DNA of 37,826 nucleotides from Oscillospiraceae bacterium (GTDB lineage: Bacteria; Bacillota; Clostridia; Oscillospirales; Acutalibacteraceae), in NCBI GenBank assembly GCA_015066465.1, contig SVOI01000019.1:1-37826 (forward strand), written 5' to 3'. Below are positions 19,806 to 34,632 of this stretch, one piece after another; position 1 is the first letter of the stretch, and every line of letters begins with the position of its first letter. The position numbers and the translations under genes were made by a program. Under the pieces are notes generated by a model, which worked only from the letters and a program-made list of their open reading frames with translations, had not been told where the DNA came from and did no database searches.

Positions 19806-19814
19806 CAAAATATT

Positions 19815-20085
19815 AAATGCGATGACCAGAAAGTAGTAGGTTGGAGAGTTTCTTCAGAGAGTTGCCGTACGGTGCAAGGCAATGTGACTCACTTCTCGAA
19901 TTCCTTCTGTTAGCAGTGCGCTGAACGAGATTTTCTCAATTAGGATGCAACGGGTGTTCCCGTAACAGAACTAAGGTATGATAGTACCTGATAAGGTCGT
20001 TACTGTGAGGTTGCGACAAACTGAGGTGGTACCACGGGAAAATTTCTCGTCCTCTGTATTCTTCGGAATGCGGAGGGCGTTTTTA
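19815..20085 (+). promoter_or_regulatory. T-box riboswitch, specifier read as UUC (Phe), controlling paaK-ACT
   Basis: The 406-base gap between iorB and paaK holds a complete T-box leader. Stem I runs from about 19820: the AGTA-type S-turn (AAGTAGTAGG, 19831-19840), the CAGAGAG bulge region (19855-19861), the distal arm with GGTGCAA, and the specifier strand CTCGAATTCC with TTC at 19901-19903 directly after GAA. The T-box core GAGGTGGTACCACG is at 20023-20036, where TGGT pairs with the ACCA end of the tRNA and predicts discriminator A. tRNA-Phe has A; tRNA-Ser, the alternative reading with UCC one base on, normally has G. A terminator follows. Uncharged tRNA should favour read-through. Confidence 0.93.
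20048..20085 (+). terminator. T-box regulated intrinsic terminator
   Basis: A 14-bp stem with G-T wobbles (20048-20061 with 20066-20079) capped by a TTCG tetraloop is followed by a run of T. The 5' strand overlaps the sequence after the T-box core, so antiterminator and terminator exclude each other. Confidence 0.92.
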
Positions 20086-21896: not shown

Positions 21897-22092
21897 AAAT
21901 GCAGAATTCAGAATGCAAAATGCAGAATTTCGGGACCTGCGGTCAGCATTATAATAATTAATCGATAAAACAACAAGATTCTATCATTTAAAGTTTACGT
22001 AAATTTTAAATGATAGAATTTGTTTATTGTTATAATGCTGACTTACTAACTACTGACCACTGATTTACTTGCAACTTGAAACTTGAAACTGC
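21897..22092 (+). repeat. heptad-armed hairpin element, copy A
   Basis: The element begins directly after the ACT gene stop with 7-base units of the type ATGCAGA/ATGCAAA, then the shared TTCGG...CTGCGG stretch. A long inverted repeat follows, with outer arms GTCAGCATTATAA (21942-21954 with 22030-22042) and core ATTCTATCATTTAAA (21978-21992 with 22005-22019). The right-hand arm is another set of 7-base units (TACTGAC, CACTGAT, CAACTTG, AAACTTG). It runs up to about 20 bases before the yunB start. The core resembles copies B, C and D, but the loop and outer arms are diverged. Confidence 0.85.
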
Positions 22093-22115
22093 ATATACTA
22101 TTATTGGTGAAGTGT

Positions 22116-22793
22116 ATGGTAAAGTTTTATTTCAAGCCGAGACGACGAAGAATACATATAAAAGCAAAAAGATATATTCCAAGAAAACAAAAACACGCAC
22201 TCACCTTTAAAATAGTGTGCGTGTTTTTAATTTTGGCTACTCTGTTTGTACTTCTTGATATTCCTATAAGACCAGTTGTAAGGGAGAATGCAAAATATAT
22301 AGTAAAAAACGAAGTTGCTCTTATGATTAATGAATGTGTTGCAGGTTATCTGCAAGAAAACAATATTGCTTACACTGATTTAATAACAGTTTCTTTAAAT
22401 GATAAAAAAGAGGTGACTGCCGTAGGTACAAACACAATAGCAGTAAACAAATTGAAAACAGATATAACAAATGCTATTGCGAATGAATTGAAAGATAGCC
22501 GTGGTGAGAAAATAAGAGTTTCTTTGGGCAATCTTTTTGACAGTTACATTTTAGACTATATCGGAATTGAATTTCAGGTTAAATTAACTGACTATGGTTT
22601 TATAGAAACTGATATTTTATCAAGTTTCAAATCTTCAGGAATCAACCAGACCATACACAGAATTAATTTGAAAATTAAAGTAGAAATAAACGTAAATATA
22701 GGTACACTTTACCAAAAAGAAACAGTAGAAACTGAAATTCTTTTAGTCGAAACTGTTCTGCTTGGGAATGTACCAGAGATGTATATAAAATAA
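22116..22793 (+). CDS. yunB: sporulation protein YunB
   Basis: YunB is a SigE-controlled sporulation protein of Bacillus and Clostridia of unknown biochemical role. The 225-residue protein has a strongly basic start (KPRRRRIHIKAKRYIPRKQK), one TM helix (FKIVCVFLILATLFVLL) and an extracytoplasmic domain with AKYIVKNEVALMINECV, RVSLGNLFDSYIL and an INLKIKVEINVNIGTL strand, all in family order. It supports a spore-forming host. The ATG at 22116 with GGTGA about 7 bases upstream is preferred; TTG or GTG codons slightly upstream are possible. Hairpin elements A and B flank it on both sides, so it has little ordinary regulatory DNA. Confidence 0.9.
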   Translation: MVKFYFKPRRRRIHIKAKRYIPRKQKHALTFKIVCVFLILATLFVLLDIPIRPVVRENAKYIVKNEVALMINECVAGYLQENNIAYTDLITVSLNDKKEVTAVGTNTIAVNKLKTDITNAIANELKDSRGEKIRVSLGNLFDSYILDYIGIEFQVKLTDYGFIETDILSSFKSSGINQTIHRINLKIKVEINVNIGTLYQKETVETEILLVETVLLGNVPEMYIK

Positions 22794-22808
22794 GTGCTGA
22801 GCGGATTT

Positions 22809-23054
22809 TAATGCATAATTCACAATGCATAATGCACAATTTCGCCTTGGTTTTAATTGAAAGTTGAAAGTTGAAAATTGAAAGTTAAGAGGCAAAGCCG
22901 ATTATAATTAAATATTAAGATAAATAAATTTATCCTATCATTTAAAGTTCGATTTAGGTATCAACTAAAAATGATAGGATAAATTTTTGGTTATTCAATT
23001 ATAATTGCCAACGCAGTTCCGAAATTCTGCATTTTGCATTCTGAATTCTGCATT
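22809..23054 (-). repeat. heptad-armed hairpin element, copy B
   Basis: About 245 bases, nearly identical to copy C but in the opposite orientation. From the left it has ATTGTGC/ATTATGC-type heptads, GTTGAAA-type heptads and GGCAAAGCCGATTATAATTA. The hairpin has a perfect 17-bp stem (22927-22943 with 22969-22985, core TATCCTATCATTT); AATTATAATTGCC, AACGCAGTTCCG and TGCATTT/TGCATTC heptads follow, running up to the apgM stop codon at 23055-23057. Relative to apgM (minus strand), the GCAGAAT arm abuts the stop, as in copies A, C and E. It fills the gap between yunB and apgM. Confidence 0.9.
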
Positions 23055-24260
23055 TTAGAAAATGAACTCGTTCATCAATTCGTGCCCAACATCAATAAAA
23101 TTACCAGTAGCCTTTGCAGTGCTTTCTGTAAATGTCTCAATACCACTGTCAGCGTGCTTCGACTTCTGATAAATCATATAAGGCACAGGGTCACTTGCGT
23201 GAGTCATAGTTTTAATTGGTGTAGGGTGGTCAGGTAAAATCATAATTTTGTAGTCATCAAGCTTCTGGAGTTCAGGGAGAATTGTGCCTAAAACAAGCTC
23301 GTCAATCATTTCAATTGCTTTAACCTTATTGTGTGGCTCGTTTCTGTGGCCACACTCGTCGGGTGCTTCTAAATGTATGTAAACAAAATCGTGAGTTTTA
23401 AGTTCATCTAAAGCACATTTTGCTTTTCCTACAAAGTTTGTGTCAATGTAGCCGGTTGCACCTTCAACCTCTGGTGCAGACATATTAGCACATTTTGCAA
23501 TGCCTTTAAGTAAATCAACTGCAGAAATTATAGAGCCACTTACGTTGTATTTCTCTTTAAAGTCAGGTAAAGCAGGCTTTGTGCCTTCACCCCAGAGCCA
23601 GATTGAGTTAGCTGGTTTTTCACCTCTTGCAATTCTCTCTTTATTAACAGGGTGCTCCATTAAAAAATTATAACTTTCTTTCATCATTTTAATTAATTCT
23701 GTTGCATTAGGTGATGAAGAAAGATGCTCTTTTATAACCTTACCAGAGATATCGTGAGGTGGTGTCATTTTTCCTAAGTTTAAAGTACCATTGTTCCACA
23801 CAAGACAATGTCTGTAAGCAACGCCACCATAGAATTTAAAAATATCATTACCAAAGTGCTCTTCAACAGATTTAATGATTTCTCTTGCTTCTTTAGTAGA
23901 AATGTCACCAGCACTGTAATCTACCATTGTTTTATCTTCATAGTTTTCTTCATCACTAAGTGTAACTAAATTGCAACGGAAGATAATATCAGTATCCTTC
24001 ATATCAACACCGATGCTTACCGCCTCAAGTGGTGAGCGACCTGTGTAGCATTCTCTTGGGTTGTAGCCTAAAACGCTCATATTCGCAATATCGCTACCAG
24101 GCTTTAAACCGTCATCAACAGTTTTTACAATACCCATTTTGCCGTGCCTTGCCAAAAAATCAAGGTTTGGCTTTTTAGCTACCTCCATAGGTGTTTTGCC
24201 ATTTAAAGCGTCAACTGGGTAGTCTGCCATACCATCATAAAGTACAACTACATATTTCAT
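23055..24260 (-). CDS. apgM: archaeal-type cofactor-independent phosphoglycerate mutase family protein, possible homoserine kinase
   Basis: An alkaline-phosphatase-superfamily protein of 401 residues. Metal and nucleophile motifs are visible: LYDGMADYP (metal Asp9), PGSDIANMSVLGYNP, YTGRSPLEA, HLEAPDECGHRNE and ILPDHPTP. The family was named for 2,3-BPG-independent phosphoglycerate mutase of archaea, but many bacterial members are thought to act as homoserine kinase. A hom gene about 5.4 kb away fits the second role, so either activity is possible. AAGGTG precedes the ATG. It is divergent from the sugar isomerase-like gene, sharing a 150-base intergenic region with a promoter on each strand, and its stop codon abuts repeat copy B. 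Confidence 0.88.
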   Translation of the reverse strand: MKYVVVLYDGMADYPVDALNGKTPMEVAKKPNLDFLARHGKMGIVKTVDDGLKPGSDIANMSVLGYNPRECYTGRSPLEAVSIGVDMKDTDIIFRCNLVTLSDEENYEDKTMVDYSAGDISTKEAREIIKSVEEHFGNDIFKFYGGVAYRHCLVWNNGTLNLGKMTPPHDISGKVIKEHLSSSPNATELIKMMKESYNFLMEHPVNKERIARGEKPANSIWLWGEGTKPALPDFKEKYNVSGSIISAVDLLKGIAKCANMSAPEVEGATGYIDTNFVGKAKCALDELKTHDFVYIHLEAPDECGHRNEPHNKVKAIEMIDELVLGTILPELQKLDDYKIMILPDHPTPIKTMTHASDPVPYMIYQKSKHADSGIETFTESTAKATGNFIDVGHELMNEFIF

Positions 24261-24300
24261 AAAATATCACCTTATATCTGTTCTGAAAAATTACTATATA

Positions 24301-24330
24301 AATATACAACTTATTTAAAGTGAATGTCAA
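24301..24330 (-). promoter_or_regulatory. promoter of apgM
   Basis: On the minus strand TTGACA (24325-24330), 18 bases, TATATT (24301-24306), 41 bases before the apgM ATG. Confidence 0.65.
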
Positions 24331-24348
24331 TAAAATGTGAAAAATATA

Positions 24349-24376
24349 TTGAAAATGTTTTTTTATGTTGTATAAT
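24349..24376 (+). promoter_or_regulatory. promoter of the sugar isomerase-like gene
   Basis: TTGAAA (24349-24354), 16 bases, TATAAT (24371-24376), 35 bases before the ATG at 24411. Placed back to back with the apgM promoter. Confidence 0.75.
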
Positions 24377-24410
24377 TAAAGAGTATTATATTTCTAAAGG
24401 AGTAATTTTT

Positions 24411-25232
24411 ATGAAATTCCCAATTGCATTACAGCTCTATTCAGTAAGAGATGATATGGAAAAAGATTTTTATGGCACACTCGAAAAGGTTAAGGCTTTA
24501 GGCTACGATGGTGTAGAATTTGCTGGTCTTTTTGGTGAAGCACCAGAGAAAATTAAAGGAAAATTAGCAGAACTTAAAATGGAACCAATTTCTGCTCATG
24601 TGCCTTATTACGATATGTTGGAAAATCCAACAGAGGTTTTAAAAGATTATAAAGAAATCGGTTGTAAATACGTTGTTGTTCCTTACCTTACAGAAGAATG
24701 TCGCCCTGGTACAGATGGCTTTTCTGATACAGTTAAGGGTATAAGAAAAATTGGTGAAGCAGCAAAAGAACTCGGTCTTCAGCTTCTTTACCACAACCAC
24801 GATTTTGAATTTATTAAAATCGACGGTGAATATGCACTCGATATTCTTTATAATGAAGTGCCTTCTGAATTTTTACAGACTGAAATTGACACTTGCTGGG
24901 TAAATGTAGGCGGTGAAAATCCTGCAGGTTATATTGAAAAATATACAGGTCGTGCACCAGTAGTTCACCTTAAAGACTTTGTTGGTTCAAACAATGGTGG
25001 TCCACTTTATAAGCTTATTGGTATTGAGGAAGAAGAAACTGAAGCTAAAGAGCAGACCTTTGAATTCAGACCAGTAGGTTATGGCGTTCAGGATTTTGAG
25101 GCTATTTTAAAAGCATCAGAAAAAGCAGGTGCTTCTTGGGTGGTTGTTGAACAGGATAATCCTTCAATGGATAAAACTCCACTTGAGTGTGCCCAGATGA
25201 GCATTGAGTATCTTAAGGGGATTAACGCTTGA
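24411..25232 (+). CDS. sugar phosphate isomerase/epimerase-like TIM barrel protein
   Basis: A second AP_endonuc_2/xylose isomerase-like TIM-barrel protein, 273 residues, only distantly like the one at 11960. It begins FPIALQLYSVRDDMEKDFYGTLEKVKALGYDGVEFAG, a form common in the IolE/YcjR-like branch, and has SAHVPY, LLYHNHDFEF (His/Asp metal region), TEIDTCWVNVGG, VVHLKDF and WVVVEQD (Glu ligand). The ATG at 24411 with AAAGGAG upstream is clearly the start; the frame is open 87 bases further upstream but crosses the promoter. Monocistronic; its stop codon is followed immediately by repeat copy C. Substrate unknown. Confidence 0.88.
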   Translation: MKFPIALQLYSVRDDMEKDFYGTLEKVKALGYDGVEFAGLFGEAPEKIKGKLAELKMEPISAHVPYYDMLENPTEVLKDYKEIGCKYVVVPYLTEECRPGTDGFSDTVKGIRKIGEAAKELGLQLLYHNHDFEFIKIDGEYALDILYNEVPSEFLQTEIDTCWVNVGGENPAGYIEKYTGRAPVVHLKDFVGSNNGGPLYKLIGIEEEETEAKEQTFEFRPVGYGVQDFEAILKASEKAGASWVVVEQDNPSMDKTPLECAQMSIEYLKGINA

Positions 25233-25480
25233 TGAATGCAGAATGCAAAATGCAAAATGCAGAATTTCGGAACTGCGTTGGCAATTATAATTGAATAACC
25301 AAAAGTTTATCCTATCATTTTTAGTTGATACCTAAATCGAACTTTAAATGATAGGATAAATTTATTTATCTTAATATTTAATTATAATCGGCTTTGCCCC
25401 TTAACTTTCAACTTTTAATTTTCAACTTTCAATTAAAATCAAGGCGAAATTGTGCATTATGAATTGTGAATTGTGCATTT
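25233..25480 (+). repeat. heptad-armed hairpin element, copy C
   Basis: The reverse complement of copy B with few changes, starting at the first base after the TGA of the isomerase-like gene. Order: ATGCAGA/ATGCAAA heptads, TTCGGAACTGCGTTGGCAA, hairpin stem 25306-25320 with 25346-25360, TTATAATCGGCTTTGCC, TTTCAAC/TTTCAAT heptads and GTGCATT/GTGAATT heptads. The number of heptads differs from copy B. A further fragment (TTTGCCTCTTAACTTTCAATTA) continues to about 25511. The 336-base gap to the next gene holds only this element, the fragment and the promoter below. Confidence 0.9.
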
Positions 25481-25513
25481 ATAAAGACTTTGCCTCTTAA
25501 CTTTCAATTAAAT

Positions 25514-25542
25514 TTGACACACAAATTACACACGACTATAAT
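25514..25542 (+). promoter_or_regulatory. consensus promoter of the OmpR-type two-component operon
   Basis: TTGACA (25514-25519), exactly 17 bases, TATAAT (25537-25542), 26 bases before the start codon. Both hexamers are perfect. It starts 3 bases after the end of the repeat fragment. Confidence 0.9.
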
Positions 25543-25568
25543 ATTATCATATCAAAGGGGGAGAGTTA

Positions 25569-26240
25569 ATGTATAAAATTCTCGTTGCAGATGATGAAAT
25601 CAAGATAAGAAACACCATAAAAGATTATCTTACAGCAAAAGATTTAAGTGTTATAACTGCAAGTGATGGTGAAGATGCAGTAGAAAAAACAGAAGAAACT
25701 GAATTTGATTTAATCATACTTGATGTTATGATGCCTAAAAAAGATGGTTTAAAAGCATGTGAAGAAATAAGAAAGTGGAGTAACGTTCCAATTCTTTTTC
25801 TCTCAGCTTTAGGTGAAGAAACAGACTATTTAAAAGGCTTTTCTTCTGGTGGTGATGATTACATAGTAAAACCATTTCCGCTTTCAGTGTTGCACCAAAA
25901 GTGCCTTTCTATGATTGCTATGTCAAAAGGAAATTTGAAACGTGACGAGATTTCATTAAATGGAATTGTAATAGATTTAGCGAAGCGAAAGGTTTTTGTT
26001 GAAAGTACAGAAATTACGCTTACTACGAAAGATTATGAATTGTTACGCTATTTAATGGAAAATAAAAATATAGTTTTAGACAGAGATAAGATTCTTAACA
26101 GAATATGGGGTTGGGAATATGAGGGAACCTCACGTGTTGTCGACACCCATATAAAAAGAATTCGTAAGGCGTTGGGCGAAAAGGCAGAGTTTATTAAGAC
26201 GGTTGTGAATGTAGGGTATACGTTTGAATGTTCGCTATAG
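25569..26240 (+). CDS. OmpR/PhoB family response regulator
   Basis: A cytosolic two-component regulator of 223 residues: receiver domain with VADDEIKI, phosphoacceptor Asp52 (IILDVMMPKKDG), FLSALGEE and DDYIVKPF, then a winged-helix Trans_reg_C domain (from ~residue 125) with LTTKDYELLRYLMENKN, RVVDTHIKRIRKALG and the closing VVNVGYTFE. Very strong AAGGGGGAGAG site before the ATG. The cognate kinase gene begins 46 bases downstream. The target genes are not evident from the window. Confidence 0.95.
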   Translation: MYKILVADDEIKIRNTIKDYLTAKDLSVITASDGEDAVEKTEETEFDLIILDVMMPKKDGLKACEEIRKWSNVPILFLSALGEETDYLKGFSSGGDDYIVKPFPLSVLHQKCLSMIAMSKGNLKRDEISLNGIVIDLAKRKVFVESTEITLTTKDYELLRYLMENKNIVLDRDKILNRIWGWEYEGTSRVVDTHIKRIRKALGEKAEFIKTVVNVGYTFECSL

Positions 26241-26286
26241 CGAAAGCGATATAAATCATTGTAAATTTAATTAAGGGGGATTTTTT

Positions 26287-27900
26287 ATGAAAAAATTATC
26301 AAATAAAAAAAGGATTTTTGGGTTCGCATCTTTAGTAATAGTTTTATGTTATATTGTTTCGATGGTAGCATTGTATATAGTAGGCTTAAACAACGAACAT
26401 TCCTATTTTTACAGATTTACAGAAAACTACTATGATGAGTTTGCTTCAAAAGTATATACGATTGGTATAGAACTTGATGATAGTAAATTTACAGAAGAAA
26501 ATTTTATGTATTCTGTTTTTAGTCCGTTCAGTTATTCAGGTGTTATGCTATTATTTGATGCAAATGGAGAACTGGTTCATACAAGTGGTAGTTATATTGC
26601 TTTTAATGATGAATATGGCGGACAAAGAATTTGCTATCTTGATGAACACTTGGAAAAAACGGAATTGGAAAAACTTTGGGAATTTAGTGAAAAAACGGAA
26701 AGTCTTCATATTATAAGTTTTAAATATTACGAATCCCAAGAAGGCGATATAGTTCCTGTTTCTCTTGTAGTTTCTGATTTTTACCCATATGGAGATTATC
26801 CTGAATGTTTTGAAATAAAAGAATTAGAAATTATTGGTGATAAAAATTATAAAGGTGAAGTTAAGGAATATACCGAAACCTATGATTTGAATGTTTACCC
26901 TGAAACAATTAAACGTGAAGAATTAAAAAATATCGTCTTGAGTGAAGAATATATGCAAGAAATGAAAGATGATTTGAGTAAAGCGTCAAATCAAGATACG
27001 CTTTTGGCAAATACTTTCGGTAGTAGTAGTGGTGGTAATTTTGCAAGTTATGATGGTTGCGTTGAGCTTTCGGGTGAATTATATTATTTTATAATATGTT
27101 TTGGGTATGATGAATTTATTGCGGTTATAAACAGTGATAGTAGTATATTTGTAACAACAACTCTTTTATTCCTGGTTTTAACTGTTGTAGTTTTAATAAT
27201 GATATCTAAATTCTATGATAAAAATAAAGCGTTTGAAGAAAGTAAAAATGCTTTCATCTCTGCTATGACACACGAAATGAAAACACCAATTGCAATTATT
27301 CAGAATCAATGCGAGTGTGTTTTAGAAAATATTGCTCCAGAAAAAAATGAGGAGTATTTAAAATCGATTTACGATGAAACACAGAAAATGGATAAGTTGG
27401 TTACTGATATGCTTCAATATAACAGAATTGCAACGAATGGCAATGTGAATGTTGAGAAATGCAATCTCAGTGATATTGTAAAGGAAGAAACAGAAAAATA
27501 TAAAAAGCAATTTGAGTTGCACGAAAAGAATGTAACTTTAAATTTAAAAGAAACTGCAATTGTAAAGTGTGATAAAAATTTAATTGCATTAGTTGTTGAC
27601 AATATGCTTTCAAATACCATAAAGCATACTGAAAATGGTGGGGAAGTAATAGTTACAGTTAAAGATGGCGTTGAGGGTTATAAGTTTAGTGTTTATAACT
27701 CAGGCTCGACCGTGCCAGAAAATGAAAAAGATAAAATCTGGTCAGTGCTTTATAAAACAGATAAATCAAGAACAGAGCGAGATAAATCAAGCGGTGTAGG
27801 TCTTGCAGTTTCAGCAAAGATTCTTGATTTACATAAGGCGAACTATGGTTGTGCGAATGTAAAGGACGGGGTGGAGTTTTATTTTACAATTAAAAATTAA
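26287..27900 (+). CDS. sensor histidine kinase with large extracytoplasmic domain
   Basis: A HisKA/HATPase_c kinase of 537 residues paired with the regulator before it. TM1 (FASLVIVLCYIVSMVALYIVG) and TM2 (VTTTLLFLVLTVVVLIMI, near residue 292) enclose an acidic extracytoplasmic region of about 250 residues with no domain I recognise. The dimerisation helix has AMTHEMKTPIAIIQNQ with His329; the ATPase domain has DNMLSNTIKHTENGG, YNSGSTVP and SSGVGLAVSAKIL. AAGGGGG is at good spacing from the ATG. The large outer domain suggests sensing of an envelope or extracellular ligand. Repeat copy D begins about 10 bases after the stop. Confidence 0.94.
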   Translation: MKKLSNKKRIFGFASLVIVLCYIVSMVALYIVGLNNEHSYFYRFTENYYDEFASKVYTIGIELDDSKFTEENFMYSVFSPFSYSGVMLLFDANGELVHTSGSYIAFNDEYGGQRICYLDEHLEKTELEKLWEFSEKTESLHIISFKYYESQEGDIVPVSLVVSDFYPYGDYPECFEIKELEIIGDKNYKGEVKEYTETYDLNVYPETIKREELKNIVLSEEYMQEMKDDLSKASNQDTLLANTFGSSSGGNFASYDGCVELSGELYYFIICFGYDEFIAVINSDSSIFVTTTLLFLVLTVVVLIMISKFYDKNKAFEESKNAFISAMTHEMKTPIAIIQNQCECVLENIAPEKNEEYLKSIYDETQKMDKLVTDMLQYNRIATNGNVNVEKCNLSDIVKEETEKYKKQFELHEKNVTLNLKETAIVKCDKNLIALVVDNMLSNTIKHTENGGEVIVTVKDGVEGYKFSVYNSGSTVPENEKDKIWSVLYKTDKSRTERDKSSGVGLAVSAKILDLHKANYGCANVKDGVEFYFTIKN

Positions 27901-27909
27901 AAATTTTAG

Positions 27910-28109
27910 AAGGCTTCCTTGATTTTAGTTGAAAGTTGAAAATTGAAAGTTGAAAGTTAAGGGGCAAAGCCGATTATAATTTAATATTAAGATAAATAAA
28001 TATATCCTATCATTTAAACTATAAATGATAGGATAAACTATTACTTATTTGATTTATAATGCCAACGCAGTTCTGAAATTTTCAACTTTCAACTTTCAAT
28101 TTTCAACTA
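27910..28109 (+). repeat. heptad-armed hairpin element, copy D
   Basis: GTTGAAA-type heptads on the left and their inverse (TTTCAAC/TTTCAAT) on the right enclose GGGGCAAAGCCGATTATAAT. The shortest core hairpin follows (28003-28016 with 28022-28035, 14 bp, 5-base loop), then TTATAATGCCAACGCAGTTCTGAAA. Unlike copies A-C, both arms are of the same heptad type, so the whole unit can fold into one long hairpin. The 326-base gap between the kinase gene and the next gene contains only this unit and a promoter. Confidence 0.88.
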
Positions 28110-28167
28110 ATACAAATCAATCCACAATAGCCAACTATCCATACTAAATCTATTTACAATTTTCGAC

Positions 28168-28196
28168 TTGAAAAACATAGCAATATATGGTAGTAT
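28168..28196 (+). promoter_or_regulatory. promoter of the small membrane protein gene
   Basis: TTGAAA (28168-28173), 17 bases, TAGTAT (28191-28196), 30 bases before the TTG start at 28227. Confidence 0.6.
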
Positions 28197-28226
28197 ATCG
28201 TCACTAAGTAAAAAAAGGTGAATGTT

Positions 28227-28748
28227 TTGAAGAAAAAAATTACATTAAACGCCTTTTCTATTGCCTTTGTTTTAGGTGTTCACGCTATACTTTGCTTTAT
28301 ATATAACAAAATCTGCTTTTTAGATGGTGTTTACCTTTGGGGTGATTTAAAAGGTGTTCTTAAAATAATAGTTATGGTGTTTATGTTTTTATTAGCACCT
28401 GTCTGCTACTATATTTCGGGGCGTATTTTCACACGCTTTGCAAATAAAAAGTTTTATATAACTACTGTGTGGGTTATATTCTCACTTCTTTCTGTTTTAG
28501 GAGTTGTGGCTGTTTTTAAACCAGAATTCCAGAACTTTTATCTTTTAGTTAATGCACCATCTTATATGTATTACTTGCTTTTTAAAGATAGTATTTTTTA
28601 TATTTCTGTTCCAGCTATGGCAATTACAGGTCTTTTCCCTGCAATGTTTTCAAGGAATGGCTACGTAAGAAAGAAACGCCAGAAGAACGAAATTACAATG
28701 GATGAATTAAATGAAAAATTAGAAAATGAAAAGAACCAAGACTCATAA
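28227..28748 (+). CDS. unknown multi-pass membrane protein
   Basis: A 173-residue protein I do not recognise. It has four hydrophobic segments (about residues 8-24, 40-60, 73-95 and 118-140) and a basic/acidic charged cytosolic tail (RKKRQKNEITMDELNEKLENEKNQ). The TTG at 28227 is chosen because AAGGTG (28215-28220) is 6 bases before it; the in-frame GTG at 28218 would lie inside that site. It converges on the zinc-ribbon gene and the two reading frames overlap by 6 bases at a shared terminator. Confidence 0.72.
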   Translation: MKKKITLNAFSIAFVLGVHAILCFIYNKICFLDGVYLWGDLKGVLKIIVMVFMFLLAPVCYYISGRIFTRFANKKFYITTVWVIFSLLSVLGVVAVFKPEFQNFYLLVNAPSYMYYLLFKDSIFYISVPAMAITGLFPAMFSRNGYVRKKRQKNEITMDELNEKLENEKNQDS

Positions 28749-28765
28749 GGTCTTGGTTCTCTCTT
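28732..28765. terminator. bidirectional terminator inside overlapping gene ends
   Basis: AGAACCAAGAC (28732-28742) pairs with GTCTTGGTTCT (28750-28760) around a 7-base loop that carries both stop codons (TAA plus strand, TGA minus strand). T-rich sequence follows on the plus strand. Confidence 0.85.
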
Positions 28766-29462
28766 TTTTCATACTTTTATTTGTTATAAAGTTTAAAATA
28801 AAATTAAAGGTGAAAAGAATTACACCTACTATAATTCCGAAGTGAACGTTGCCTGTAAAAATGCCAAGCTCTGCAGAGCTCAGATTATTAACAGCAATAC
28901 TGTAAAGAACAGGGGAGAGTATAAAGCAAAGTGCAGAAGCAGCACAAAGCACACAGTTAATTGTTGCTTTAAGTGATGAAGCACAAGCTAAAATACAAAT
29001 GAAGTTTAATACACCAAACACAACTGCTAAATAAAGAAGCAAGAGTGCAATAAATATAAATGCGAAGCTTATACCTAATTCATCTAACTTAACTAAGTTA
29101 ATTATTGAACCCCAGTTTATATTAAGAAGATTATTTAAGGTGAAATCTAAAAGTGTAACTTTTCTTGTTTCTTCGCTTAAGAATGGCAAGTTAAATATAT
29201 AAGATGCAACTGGTAAAACAAGCACAATAAGTGGAACAAAAGTGAAAATAAATCTTATAATTCTTAACTTGTTACCAAAAAGAGCACTTTTAAAGTTCTT
29301 AGTAAAAGTTCTGAAACCTCGCCACGCTTCTTCAGCCTTTTTTGCATCACGCTCTAACATATTTTCCCAATCATAGTTTGGTATGTTCGTGCCACAATGC
29401 GGACATTCTGCTTTAACGTTCCAGAAATGTAAAGTTTTAAAACAATGTGGACAATAAGACAT
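28743..29462 (-). CDS. zinc-ribbon multi-pass membrane protein
   Basis: A 239-residue protein with an N-terminal zinc ribbon (CPHC...CPHC, residues 4-26), an amphipathic charged linker (LERDAKKAEEAWRGFRTF) and about five TM helices. The function is unknown; zinc ribbon plus membrane domain is a frequent arrangement in Clostridia. The ATG at 29462 is preferred over the GTG at 29471, because GGCGGTG sits 6 bases before it and MSYCPHC is a natural start. Its upstream region is taken up by repeat copy E, so any promoter must lie in or across that element. Confidence 0.75.
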   Translation of the reverse strand: MSYCPHCFKTLHFWNVKAECPHCGTNIPNYDWENMLERDAKKAEEAWRGFRTFTKNFKSALFGNKLRIIRFIFTFVPLIVLVLPVASYIFNLPFLSEETRKVTLLDFTLNNLLNINWGSIINLVKLDELGISFAFIFIALLLLYLAVVFGVLNFICILACASSLKATINCVLCAASALCFILSPVLYSIAVNNLSSAELGIFTGNVHFGIIVGVILFTFNFILNFITNKSMKKERTKTL

Positions 29463-29485
29463 AATTTTCACCGCCCGTTTACAAA

Positions 29486-29681
29486 AGACTTCGCCTTTTG
29501 AATGCAGAATGCATAATGCATAATGCAGAATTTCGGAAGGCTTCGCCTTAATTTTTATTAATTGTCAATAAGAAGAACAAAGTCTGTCATTATATAGCTT
29601 TTTGAGAAAAGATGAAATGAAAGAATGCAGATGTTTATATAACATTATGATAGCGTCGCAGACCCTTAATTCTGCATTTTA
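29486..29681 (-). repeat. heptad-armed hairpin element, copy E (diverged)
   Basis: ATGCAGA/ATGCATA heptads on the left and an inverse TTCTGCATT arm on the right enclose TTCGGAAGGCTTCGCC and a diverged inverted repeat (GTCTG..ATTATATAGC with the region 29635-29662, which ends GCAGAC). The TATCCTATCATTT core of the other copies is not kept. The right arm reaches the stop codon of hom (29682-29684), with the same GCAGAAT-type arm facing the gene as in copies A-C. It fills the gap between hom and the zinc-ribbon gene. Confidence 0.7.
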
Positions 29682-30911
29682 TCAATAGTCTAAAACTCTG
29701 AGAATATTCTTTACTTCAATACCGAGTGCGCTGATTTTGCTTCTTGCTTCTTTTTCGTTCATAAGAGGTGTAACAAAAGCAATTTCTGTTTTTACATCTG
29801 ATTCAAGAATCTGAACGTCAGTAAATGAAGCTTTAACTTTTTCTGCTACTGCATTGTAGTCATTTACATTGGCTCTTATGTAAAGAGAAGAGCTTTGCTC
29901 TAATGGATTGATAACGTAATCATTTTCAGCATCATCCCAACCGATAAGCTTTCTTTTATCAGTATGCTTTGCGCAGTCTATAACGTCTGCAACAACGGCA
30001 CTTGCTGTTGGGAATTTACCAGCACCTCTGCCATAGAATACTACGTCGCCCACAGCGTCTCCACGAACGAGAATAGCGTTGAAAACGTCAGAAACAGATG
30101 CTAACTGGCAACCATTTTTAATAAGGCAAGGGCCAACTGTAGCAGAAATCTTGCCACTTTCAAGCTTTTTAGCACGTCCTATAAGCTTTATTACGCCACC
30201 CCAGATTTTAGCGTATTCAACATCTTCTTTTGAAATGTTTACAATACCTTCTGCTTCTACTTCATCAGGGTAAACGTGTTTACCAAAGCAAAGAGAAGCT
30301 AAAATGCAAATCTTTCTTGCAGCATCGTGACCTAAAATATCTGCTGATGGGTCTCTTTCAGCGTAGCCGTTTGCCTGAGCAATTTTAAGTGCTTCGTCAA
30401 AATCCATTCCCTCATCAATCATTTTTGTGAGGATGAAGTTTGTAGTACCGTTAAGAATACCAGCAACTTCCTGGAATTCATTTGCGGCAAGACATTGGTT
30501 AATTGGTCTTATAATTGGAATACCGCCACCAACACTTGCTTCAAACAAGAAATTAACATTGTTTTCTTTTGCTAACTCCAAAAGCTCGTAGCCTTTTGCA
30601 GCAACAAGCTCTTTGTTAGAGGTAACAACGCTTTTACCAGCTTTAAGGCATTTTGAAACAAAATCAAAAGCAGGGTTTACACCGCCCATTGTTTCAACAA
30701 CAATCTTAATATCTTTATCATTTAAAATATCGTTAAAATCTTTTGTGAAAAGCTCAGCTAACTGATGAGAAGAAAAATCACGTATATCAAGAATTCTCTT
30801 TACATCAAGAGAAGCTTGACCACTTCTTGAAGCTATACTTTTCTTGTTTTTAAGGATTAACTCGACAACGCCTGAACCGACTGTGCCGAAACCCATAACT
30901 GCAACTTGCAT
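29682..30911 (-). CDS. hom: homoserine dehydrogenase
   Basis: NAD(P)-dependent reduction of aspartate semialdehyde to homoserine, the branch point to threonine and methionine. The 409-residue protein starts with the Rossmann motif VAVMGFGTVGSGVVELI, has TSNKELVA, GGGIPIIRPINQCL, GILNGTTNFIL, ERDPSADILGHDAARK (catalytic region) and YGRGAGKFPTASAVVADV. The C-terminal ~70 residues form an ACT domain (SLYIRANVNDYNAVAEKV), the usual site for feedback inhibition by threonine. AGGGGTG precedes the ATG. The apgM-type gene nearby may supply homoserine kinase. It is monocistronic as far as can be seen. Confidence 0.97.
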   Translation of the reverse strand: MQVAVMGFGTVGSGVVELILKNKKSIASRSGQASLDVKRILDIRDFSSHQLAELFTKDFNDILNDKDIKIVVETMGGVNPAFDFVSKCLKAGKSVVTSNKELVAAKGYELLELAKENNVNFLFEASVGGGIPIIRPINQCLAANEFQEVAGILNGTTNFILTKMIDEGMDFDEALKIAQANGYAERDPSADILGHDAARKICILASLCFGKHVYPDEVEAEGIVNISKEDVEYAKIWGGVIKLIGRAKKLESGKISATVGPCLIKNGCQLASVSDVFNAILVRGDAVGDVVFYGRGAGKFPTASAVVADVIDCAKHTDKRKLIGWDDAENDYVINPLEQSSSLYIRANVNDYNAVAEKVKASFTDVQILESDVKTEIAFVTPLMNEKEARSKISALGIEVKNILRVLDY

Positions 30912-34349: not shown

Positions 34350-34632
34350 GGGCACGCGAAAGGGCGTGTCCTATTTTCATGCCCTTTTTGCGAAATGATA
34401 TGCGATGATGCGGGAGGTGGCTGCCTTTAGTGGCAGGGAATTTCCGCGGAGTATGTCCGATTTTAAACCGGGCGATTTTAAATACTGTGCAAGCTGTATT
34501 GCCTACCTTAACTGAGGCTTTCGGCGTTGTACGTAGCGCAAGTTTTTCCCGGAAGTTTATTCCGGTTTTTAAACGGAGTAAGCGAACACCCCGGGCGAGT
34601 TGTTAAAATTTGCGTAAGCCCGCCAAAATTTT
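34350..34632 (+). promoter_or_regulatory. long structured leader of the S10 operon, candidate attenuator
   Basis: The 440-base gap before rpsJ is AT-rich up to 34340, then markedly GC-richer. A hairpin (34350-34357 with 34364-34371) overlaps a second one (34359-34365 with 34381-34387) that ends in a T run, so the two exclude each other as in an attenuator. Further stems: CTGCC/GGCAG near 34420-34435, CCGGAA/TTCCGG (34549-34554 with 34560-34565) followed by five T, and CGGGC/GCCCG near the end. r-protein operons are commonly controlled by binding of one product to such a leader. I do not recognise a specific Rfam class, and the ligand is unknown. Confidence 0.6.

Follow-up and report, generated by a model that had tools for sequence, protein, structure and literature searches.

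Intergenic palindromes with 7-base-repeat arms in an Oscillospiraceae genome: probable gene-less relatives of S23/IVP elements

INTRODUCTION

Why should noncoding hairpins lying between protein genes have arms with a constant period of 7 bases? The question is raised by a 37,826-nucleotide (nt) contig of an Oscillospiraceae bacterium (SVOI01000019.1; contig C64 of assembly GCA_015066465.1, here G000, which is 2.53 Mb long and 80.6% complete); this entire contig is the window analyzed here. The nearest named relatives of its ribosomal protein L4, an open reading frame (ORF) assigned by reading, are Clostridia/Oscillospiraceae metagenome-assembled genomes with no more than 80% identity. A preliminary description reported five copies, A to E, of a hairpin element within 8 kb (21897 to 29681), likened them to miniature inverted-repeat transposable elements (MITEs) or repetitive extragenic palindromic (REP) elements, and called the 7-base period of the arms unusual. 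Here we present evidence that A to E are very probably ORF-less, MITE-like relatives of elements in which arms of the same kind enclose a gene for an S23/intervening sequence protein (IVP; Pfam family PF05635).

Heptads in one intervening sequence (IVS) of a 23S rRNA gene, that of Coxiella, are already in print. According to the excerpted text of PMC4990558, tandem heptameric repeats that vary among strains precede the S23p ORF of this IVS, which has a 28-bp terminal stem and replaces the tetraloop of rRNA helices; its origin is unclear there, and both function and origin of 23S IVSs were still called unclear in 2016, more than 25 years after their discovery. Separately, MacGregor (2015; PMC4679880) described TAACTGA and other heptamer direct repeats in Beggiatoaceae, Cyanobacteria, and Bacteroidetes; the available text of that paper names no S23/IVP gene (“S23,” “intervening,” and “four helix” have no occurrences), and it states that no transfer mechanism is evident. 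In the corresponding excerpts of other papers, heptamers in the Thiomargarita and Anabaena 90 genomes are not linked to S23, a four helix bundle protein and direct repeats of Arthrospira are not linked to each other, and a 23S_rRNA_IVP domain is reported in 16S and 23S gene inserts of candidate phyla radiation bacteria without the word “heptamer.” Only the Coxiella paper was found to connect heptameric repeats with an IVS, and a general link from heptad-bearing IVP inserts to intergenic elements was not found in the open-licence PMC literature, subscription journals and preprints being outside the search. Elhai and co-workers reportedly described, in 2008, short dispersed repeats of Nostoc that were small, looked mobile, and were linked to tandem heptamers.

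RESULTS

All five copies were recovered from the sequence and the repeat listing where they had been described, and the presence of 7-base arrays in them was confirmed. Tandem Repeats Finder (TRF) gives 22 rows for the window; the period is 7 in 11 of these and 14 or 21 in another 3, and all 14 fall inside A to E. It also held that no copy contains an ORF of 80 or more amino acids and that B and C are nearly identical but inverted (96% identity over 245 nt). The claim of one shared architecture stood insofar as the inverted arrays of each copy pair to make it a single palindrome; the right half of A, made of different heptad families, and the core of E, which is gone, deviate from it. Similarly, the common central stem is present in A to D, but E has both end modules without the TATCATTT core. 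From the outside inward, an end module consists of heptads, AATTTCGG or AATTGTGG, a mini-hairpin, an ATTATAAT box, and an AT-rich stretch; the central hairpin follows, and then the inverted repeat of all these parts. In B and C, one of the two sides bears an additional layer of heptads. The predicted fold of B has an energy of -72.4 kcal/mol (z, -7.4) and that of D one of -65.7 kcal/mol (z, -10.7), with none of 200 shuffled sequences equally good in either case. At Rfam gathering scores, the whole window yielded only a T-box and an S10 leader, and no family matched A to E. Local RNA folding of the window was not selective for hairpins, and a palindrome score was used in its stead.

The same end modules enclose IVP genes elsewhere. 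At L272, a locus on contig C65 of this genome, heptads and GTGGGGCTACGCCGTAATTATA precede an IVP gene, and ACAATAGCGTCGCAGACCC and heptads follow it; these are the end modules of the window palindromes. At L093, which has the arms alone in common with them, AATKCAY heptads flank a gene whose product matches PF05635 (“23S rRNA intervening sequence protein”) with an E value of 4.5e-31. Because the same arms and mini-hairpins enclose an IVP gene at loci such as L272, we read A to E as ORF-less IVS relatives. Like an IVS, the window copies have terminal inverted repeats that make a long stem (folds of B and D; palindromes) and heptad repeats in their arms; they sit between protein genes and not in an rRNA gene, and no S23/IVP ORF (indeed, no ORF of 80 amino acids) was found in them, whereas the sister elements L272 and L093 do have one. 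The period that had been called unusual is the diagnostic trait, common to A to E and to S23/IVP elements of the 23S IVS family.

To see how general this association is, we turned to all PF05635 matches of the genus, which number 109 in 20 of 22 genomes (9 in this genome) and 0 in 14 control genomes. Flanks were read for 90 of them (18 lower-ranked matches were left out, and L249, near a contig end, was dropped). A repeat score of at least 20/24 was reached at lag 7 by 54 of 180 flanks, at lag 8 by 2, and at lags 4 to 6 and 9 to 12 by none, and at 40 of the 90 loci the complementarity between the two flanks exceeded the 99th percentile for pairs drawn from different loci. PF05635 was also matched in 47 of 299 genomes sampled across the phylum; among 29 loci, taken from 29 of the 46 other genomes with a match, 11 passed the flank-complementarity test, and 21 of 58 flanks were periodic at lag 7 (other lags, 1 to 4). 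No array was visible by eye at three of these loci (L364, L365, and L380). Among the plasmid records, 29 matched IVP, and 12 of these were read (Cyanobacteriota, 8; Spirochaetota, Bacteroidota, Bacillota, and Chloroflexota, 1 each), and inverted heptads were visible by eye at all 12 loci. A script that demanded an arm score of at least 15 and a lag 7 score of at least 17 on both sides detected inverted, matched heptad arms at 34/90 genus, 18/29 other phylum, and 11/12 plasmid loci, the only plasmid locus to fail being that of Gloeocapsa (L343). The same script was positive for none of 1,451 control ORFs of related genomes, which come from ribosomal-protein neighborhoods (L104 to L183) and may be repeat-poor, for 1 of the 37 window ORFs (22083-22793, situated between A and B), and for 1 of 9 other ORFs inside IVP loci. 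Under a stricter rule (score above 18.5, lag 7 at least 18), 31 genus, 9 phylum, and 9 plasmid loci remained, with controls at 0/1,451.

The arms themselves were surveyed on the 262 flanks of 131 IVP loci with a threshold that undercounts short arrays. Among the 109 arrays found, 49 had about five units, 31 about four, 6 about six, 3 about three, and 20 more than six. The units follow the motif NNNARTK (A, 76%; R, 93%; T, 80%; K, 77% over 71 loci), with an information content of 3.42 bits; letter-shuffled units average 2.65 bits and do not exceed 2.77. The unit varies from locus to locus, yet both arms of one locus match. L242 and L243 share one location (identity, 71% and 82% for the flanks and 79% for IVP) and have AGTCGCC and AGATGCC arms, respectively; because they differ in unit but match within each locus, the arms of one element change together. 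Such cochange could result from structural constraint or from copying of one arm to the other.

The copies are not restricted to the 8 kb in which five were first counted. A whole-genome blastn search with B gave at least 85 matches (40 of 139 candidates scored), many of which are both strands of one palindrome, and the pattern AATGCANAATKCANAATKCANAATT (a generic AATKCAN heptad), with up to one mismatch, had 114 overlapping matches in the genome, the reversed control having 0. In this genome, 235,263 bases were read, and at least 26 heptad-armed palindromes in them passed a set score threshold, which weaker elements such as A and E do not reach. B-like DNA was present in 15 of the 22 genus genomes and missing from 7; up to 35 candidates were scored per genome, and the numbers of B-like matches are therefore minima. 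In 200 sampled genomes of the family, this genus included, the heptad pattern was found in 21 and the reversed control in 2. Copies throughout the genome and the genus exclude local segmental duplication as their source. Among the five, B and C alone resemble recent copies of each other.

Mini-hairpins were assessed at 65 ends chosen by AT box and heptads, with no hairpin required, in the part of the genome read. At 37 ends, 4 or more base pairs formed a perfect stem below a loop of 3 or 4 nt (shuffled segments: mean, 4.3; maximum, 10). The triloops were GAA (16), GCA (11), GTA (2), GGA (1), and ATA (1), so that 30 of 31 triloops on stems of at least 4 bp are GNA, and six ends had a GTAA tetraloop; many of the other 28 ends had 3-bp stems by eye, with GCA or GTA and also TTT loops. 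GNA triloops closed by C-G form very stable DNA mini-hairpins, and because of this stability single-stranded DNA is weakly preferred over RNA as the working form of the element.

IVP elements also lie inside structured RNA genes, namely, three 23S rRNA genes (L370, L376, and L381) and one RNase P RNA gene (L379). Heptads are visible at all four loci; L370, L376, and L379 passed the script, and L381 failed it on one side. In L370 and L379, the two that were aligned by covariance, the insert sits in a hairpin loop. At L254, an IVP element lies beside an intact tRNA-Leu gene and a 42-nt exact direct copy of the 5′ part of that tRNA and its leader, which by reading stops in the anticodon loop. At two empty sites of Nostoc IVP elements, 328 and 188 bp of target are replaced by 466 and 422 bp; no target-site duplication was found at either of these aligned sites, and at one left junction a heptad-like CAATTCG is common to element and target (by eye). 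On plasmids, an IVP element interrupts a DNA cytosine methyltransferase gene in L335 and L351, and the gene is intact in L348 to L350.

Several observations concern other arms, cargo, and neighbors. Gut-1 (Rfam RF01706) was matched at least 247 times in the 22 genus genomes; no fewer than 16 of the 109 IVP matches have it no more than 250 nt away, and it is often seen by eye in inverted pairs (G000:C88 146-218 in L273; L252 to L258; L270). Rather than a free small RNA, Gut-1 may thus represent the arm of another class of palindrome linked to IVP. Heptad-armed pairs in this genome also enclose other small genes (L102 1496-2130, L089 2983-3689, and L033 1498-2100), encoding two proteins that match no Pfam family and read as membrane proteins and one ABM-domain monooxygenase (PF03992), as if heptad arms were able to carry cargo genes. 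On the plasmids L337, L341, L342, and L343, IVP genes lie between genes annotated as restriction or defense types (HsdS and HsdR; DrmD and MmeI; DUF1156 and Swt1-HEPN). A separate family of ~350-nt palindromes (L044 1796-2165; L032 1600-1945) is distinguished by CCTCTCTTCGAAGAGAGG at the ends and by a GGTGGAGAGTTCTTCG repeat farther inside.

The window copies are laid out as follows, with A, B, D, and E read on the plus strand and C on the minus strand. The left arm of A, AATGCAG AATTCAG AATGCAA AATGCAG, runs into AATTTCGG and the start of the mini-hairpin (21898..21937; sequence, TRF period 7); the mini-hairpin, GACC-TGC-GGTC, is at 21934-21944 (sequence), and the central hairpin, TTCTATCATTTAAAG ... 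TTTTAAATGATAGAATTT, is at 21979..22021 (inverted repeat I12, palindrome). The right half of A (22037..22094; sequence, TRF) has heptads of the ACTGACC and ACTTGAA types and does not mirror the left arm. The outer left arm of B, AATGCAT AATTCAC AATGCAT AATGCAC AATTTCG (22810..22844; sequence, TRF, fold), pairs in the fold with 23022-23054, with a mismatch at each seventh base. Then come an inner left layer of AGTTGAA-type heptads with the mini-hairpin GGC-AAA-GCC (22857..22899; TRF, coordinates), the central hairpin TTTATCCTATCATTT ... AAATGATAGGATAAA (22929..22983; inverted repeat, fold), and the right mini-hairpin AAC-GCA-GTT with the right heptad arm (23007..23054; ORF list, coordinates). 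This arm stops at the stop codon of ORF 23055-24260, presumably a phosphoglycerate mutase-like gene (apgM, by reading). A designed mismatch at every seventh base was rejected as a general feature; it is seen in B, and the other copies pair through. Our interpretation is that B combines two related families of heptads.

In C, the left heptad arm and mini-hairpin (25235..25282; repeat listing), the inverted counterpart of the right end of B, are followed by the central hairpin (25306..25360; repeat listing) and by the right mini-hairpin GGC-TTT-GCC with inner heptads of the TTTCAAC type and outer heptads of the AATTGTG type (25390..25479; TRF). D has a left arm of AGTTGAA-type heptads with a mini-hairpin (27927..27971; TRF, fold), a central hairpin (28003..28035; fold), and a right mini-hairpin AAC-GCA-GTT with a heptad arm (28061..28108; inverted repeat I13, fold) that is perfectly complementary to the left arm over 25 nt. 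E retains a left heptad arm with the mini-hairpin AAGGC-TTC-GCCTT (29501..29549; sequence, TRF) and a right mini-hairpin GTC-GCA-GAC with one decayed heptad (29652..29678; sequence), and its right end adjoins the stop codon of ORF 29682-30911. Elsewhere in the window, Rfam places a T-box leader at 19813-20057, 5′ of a phenylacetate-CoA ligase-like ORF (by reading), and an S10-Clostridia ribosomal leader at 34396-34475.

DISCUSSION

A full element of this family consists of an inverted 7-nt-repeat arm, a mini-hairpin, an AT box, a core, an AT box, a mini-hairpin, and the inverted arm, and the core position is taken by a long hairpin in A to D, by an S23/IVP gene in L272, and seemingly by other small genes elsewhere. 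The family is apparently mobile. The S23/IVS element is already known; what is added here is its intergenic, multiphylum, gene-less form. The resemblance to 23S IVSs with an S23/IVP ORF includes an inverted-repeat stem, an ORF in some members, and heptameric repeats by the ORF (as in the excerpted account of Coxiella, PMC4990558), as well as location in a hairpin loop of a structured RNA (L370 and L379 here). IVSs are, in addition, cut out of the transcript by RNase III, and the rRNA pieces are not ligated. The window copies differ from IVSs in being ORF-less, in lying between protein genes, in having mini-hairpins and a central hairpin, and in having dozens of copies. Membership of A to E in the family is the firmest part of our reading; the explanation as a whole, in which the ORF-less copies were also spread by IVP, we favor with more reserve.

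How IVP might act is a more speculative matter. S23p of Xanthomonas is described as a toroidal homopentamer in the excerpts of PMC4990558, and the PDB relatives 2rld and 2gsc have five chains each. Because the protein's relatives are pentamers, we propose one heptad per subunit: an S23/IVP pentamer would bind an arm exposed as a single strand, each subunit taking one 7-nt unit (5 × 7 = 35 nt), and would thereby bring both ends of the element together. Host enzymes would then copy or recombine the element into new places, preferably hairpin tips or terminator-like sites, where target sequence would be replaced rather than duplicated, and ORF-less copies would rely on protein from the nine IVP genes of the genome. 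This mechanism, a pentamer reading five heptads and hairpin-tip insertion by host enzymes, is possible, and we put it forward tentatively. We extend it, with similar hesitation, to a multiphylum class of transposable elements that have no classical recombinase, in which the reading of five 7-nt units by pentameric S23/IVP, loop-replacing insertion at hairpin tips, and self-nesting might yield both palindromes of the A to E type and 23S IVSs, and of which much of the heptamer repetition of Cyanobacteria, Bacteroidota, and giant sulfur bacteria might be the remains.

A number of points count against these proposals. None of A to E contains an IVP gene, and movement was not observed. The arm test failed at 56 of 90 genus IVP loci, and a second group of IVP loci has Gut-1-type hairpins in place of heptad arms. 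Inverted arms with 8-nt units (L246 and L262) and 11-nt units (L375 and L378) are visible by eye, and 20 of 109 arrays exceed six units, neither of which a strict 7 × 5 rule predicts. The correlation of IVP copy number with B-like matches across the 22 genomes (Spearman, 0.73; P, 0.0001) speaks for a link between the two, but the figure ignores descent and is based on minimum counts of B-like matches, and G007 and G010 have 5 and 3 IVP genes, yet no B-like match. Loop locations in rRNA and RNase P RNA could reflect survivorship, L254 has a direct duplication, and both empty sites belong to Nostoc IVP elements and not to window copies. The GNA loops may be due to descent, as the 37 hairpins fall into few stem families, with 9 different stems, and several window ends show 3-bp stems and AAA or TTT loops.

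Among the alternatives, we first considered that these are ordinary MITEs or REPINs moved in trans by a host transposase of the Y1/RAYT (REP-associated tyrosine transposase) or DDE type. As a description, “MITE-like” proved apt: the elements are short and noncoding, with inverted arms, many dispersed copies, and patchy occurrence in relatives. Cargo genes in some other members and the direct duplication at L254 would also suit a transposase, and Y1 transposase (PF01797) is encoded in the element-rich genomes G005 and G015. The REP-like label was not supported, since Y1 had 0 matches in this 80.6%-complete assembly; it was found in 6 of the 22 genus genomes and gave no match in the copy-rich G000, G006, and G012 (assemblies 81 to 82% complete). 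Like REPs and REPINs with their RAYTs, the palindromes are intergenic, but their arm structure is different; unlike MITEs, their arms are tandem repeats with locus-specific units. A look for an enzyme sharing the ends had been suggested; matching ends do enclose IVP, which is no known transposase, and no transposase with these ends was found (no Y1 in G000; DDE families were not searched), IVP being the only gene repeatedly seen inside such arms. The two aligned empty sites, at Nostoc IVP elements, with 188 and 328 bp replaced and no duplication, may likewise speak against a transposase, and we regard this explanation as unlikely.

A second possibility is that the palindromes are RNA structures that serve the host, as terminators or stabilizers of mRNA 3′ ends, that they were spread by recombination and kept by selection, and that the heptads are a by-product of slippage. 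The nearest gene edge is indeed a stop codon for 26 of 26 scored palindromes, and 28 of 39 neighboring stop codons (overlaps counted) but only 1 of 10 start codons lie within 30 nt (script-called ORFs of at least 90 amino acids). We compared by eye the 3′ flank of the apgM-like gene, the site of B, in 15 of the 21 genomes having that gene. An element is present in this genome and in its four closest relatives (G005, G006, G012, and G015; 92 to 95% protein identity), each with its own units or core; none is present in the ten others viewed (G007, G009, G010, G011, G013, and G016 to G020), several of which are more distant relatives with a hairpin and a T-run at the same spot. G005 and G012 have common outer arms, and the G005 core has been swapped for another entire element; concentric nesting was also seen by eye in L099 and in B. 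Such nested, mosaic elements, and a complete change of content at one site between species this close, are not what host-serving structures would lead one to expect, nor is the association with IVP predicted, and a 3′ location could arise from avoidance of genes and promoters alone. We therefore judge this explanation, too, improbable.

It is still less probable that the copies are retroelements moved by a reverse transcriptase, in the manner of diversity-generating retroelements, with IVP acting like their related Avd protein. PF05635 does resemble Avd (excerpts of PMC10053308), insertions in structured-RNA genes would be in keeping with such a mover, and G000 itself has one match to the reverse transcriptase family RVT_1 (PF00078). 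However, RVT_1 was found in only 4 of the 22 genus genomes, 18 being without a match, and not in G005, G006, G012, or G015, which are among the richest in copies (assemblies 81 to 97% complete, so that some of them may lack the gene by incompleteness). Y1 transposase and reverse transcriptase are both unsupported as movers, and neither seems to be needed for movement. Finally, expansion of simple sequence, in which 7-nt slippage arrays are turned palindromic by template switching and no element exists, is hardly credible: several phyla do have heptads, which change by 7 nt at a time (excerpts of PMC4679880), but slippage accounts neither for two-sided matched arms, conserved mini-hairpins, AT boxes, and a core nor for association with one specific gene, IVP.

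If, instead, A to E belong with the S23/IVP elements, the scattered 7-base repeats of several bacterial phyla may be explained by the same family. The heptamers of MacGregor (PMC4679880) are likewise 7-nt units, intergenic, and found in multiple phyla, and TAACTGA (as AGTTATC) fits NNNARTK; the available text differs in describing direct repeats and suggesting a role in translation. If IVSs and heptamers both belong to one heptad-armed S23/IVP family, rRNA is just one of its habitats, and a single small protein with a 35-nt arm would suffice to test both the function and origin of IVSs and the spread of heptamers. The common, uncharacterized protein family PF05635 would, if this is true, gain a substrate.

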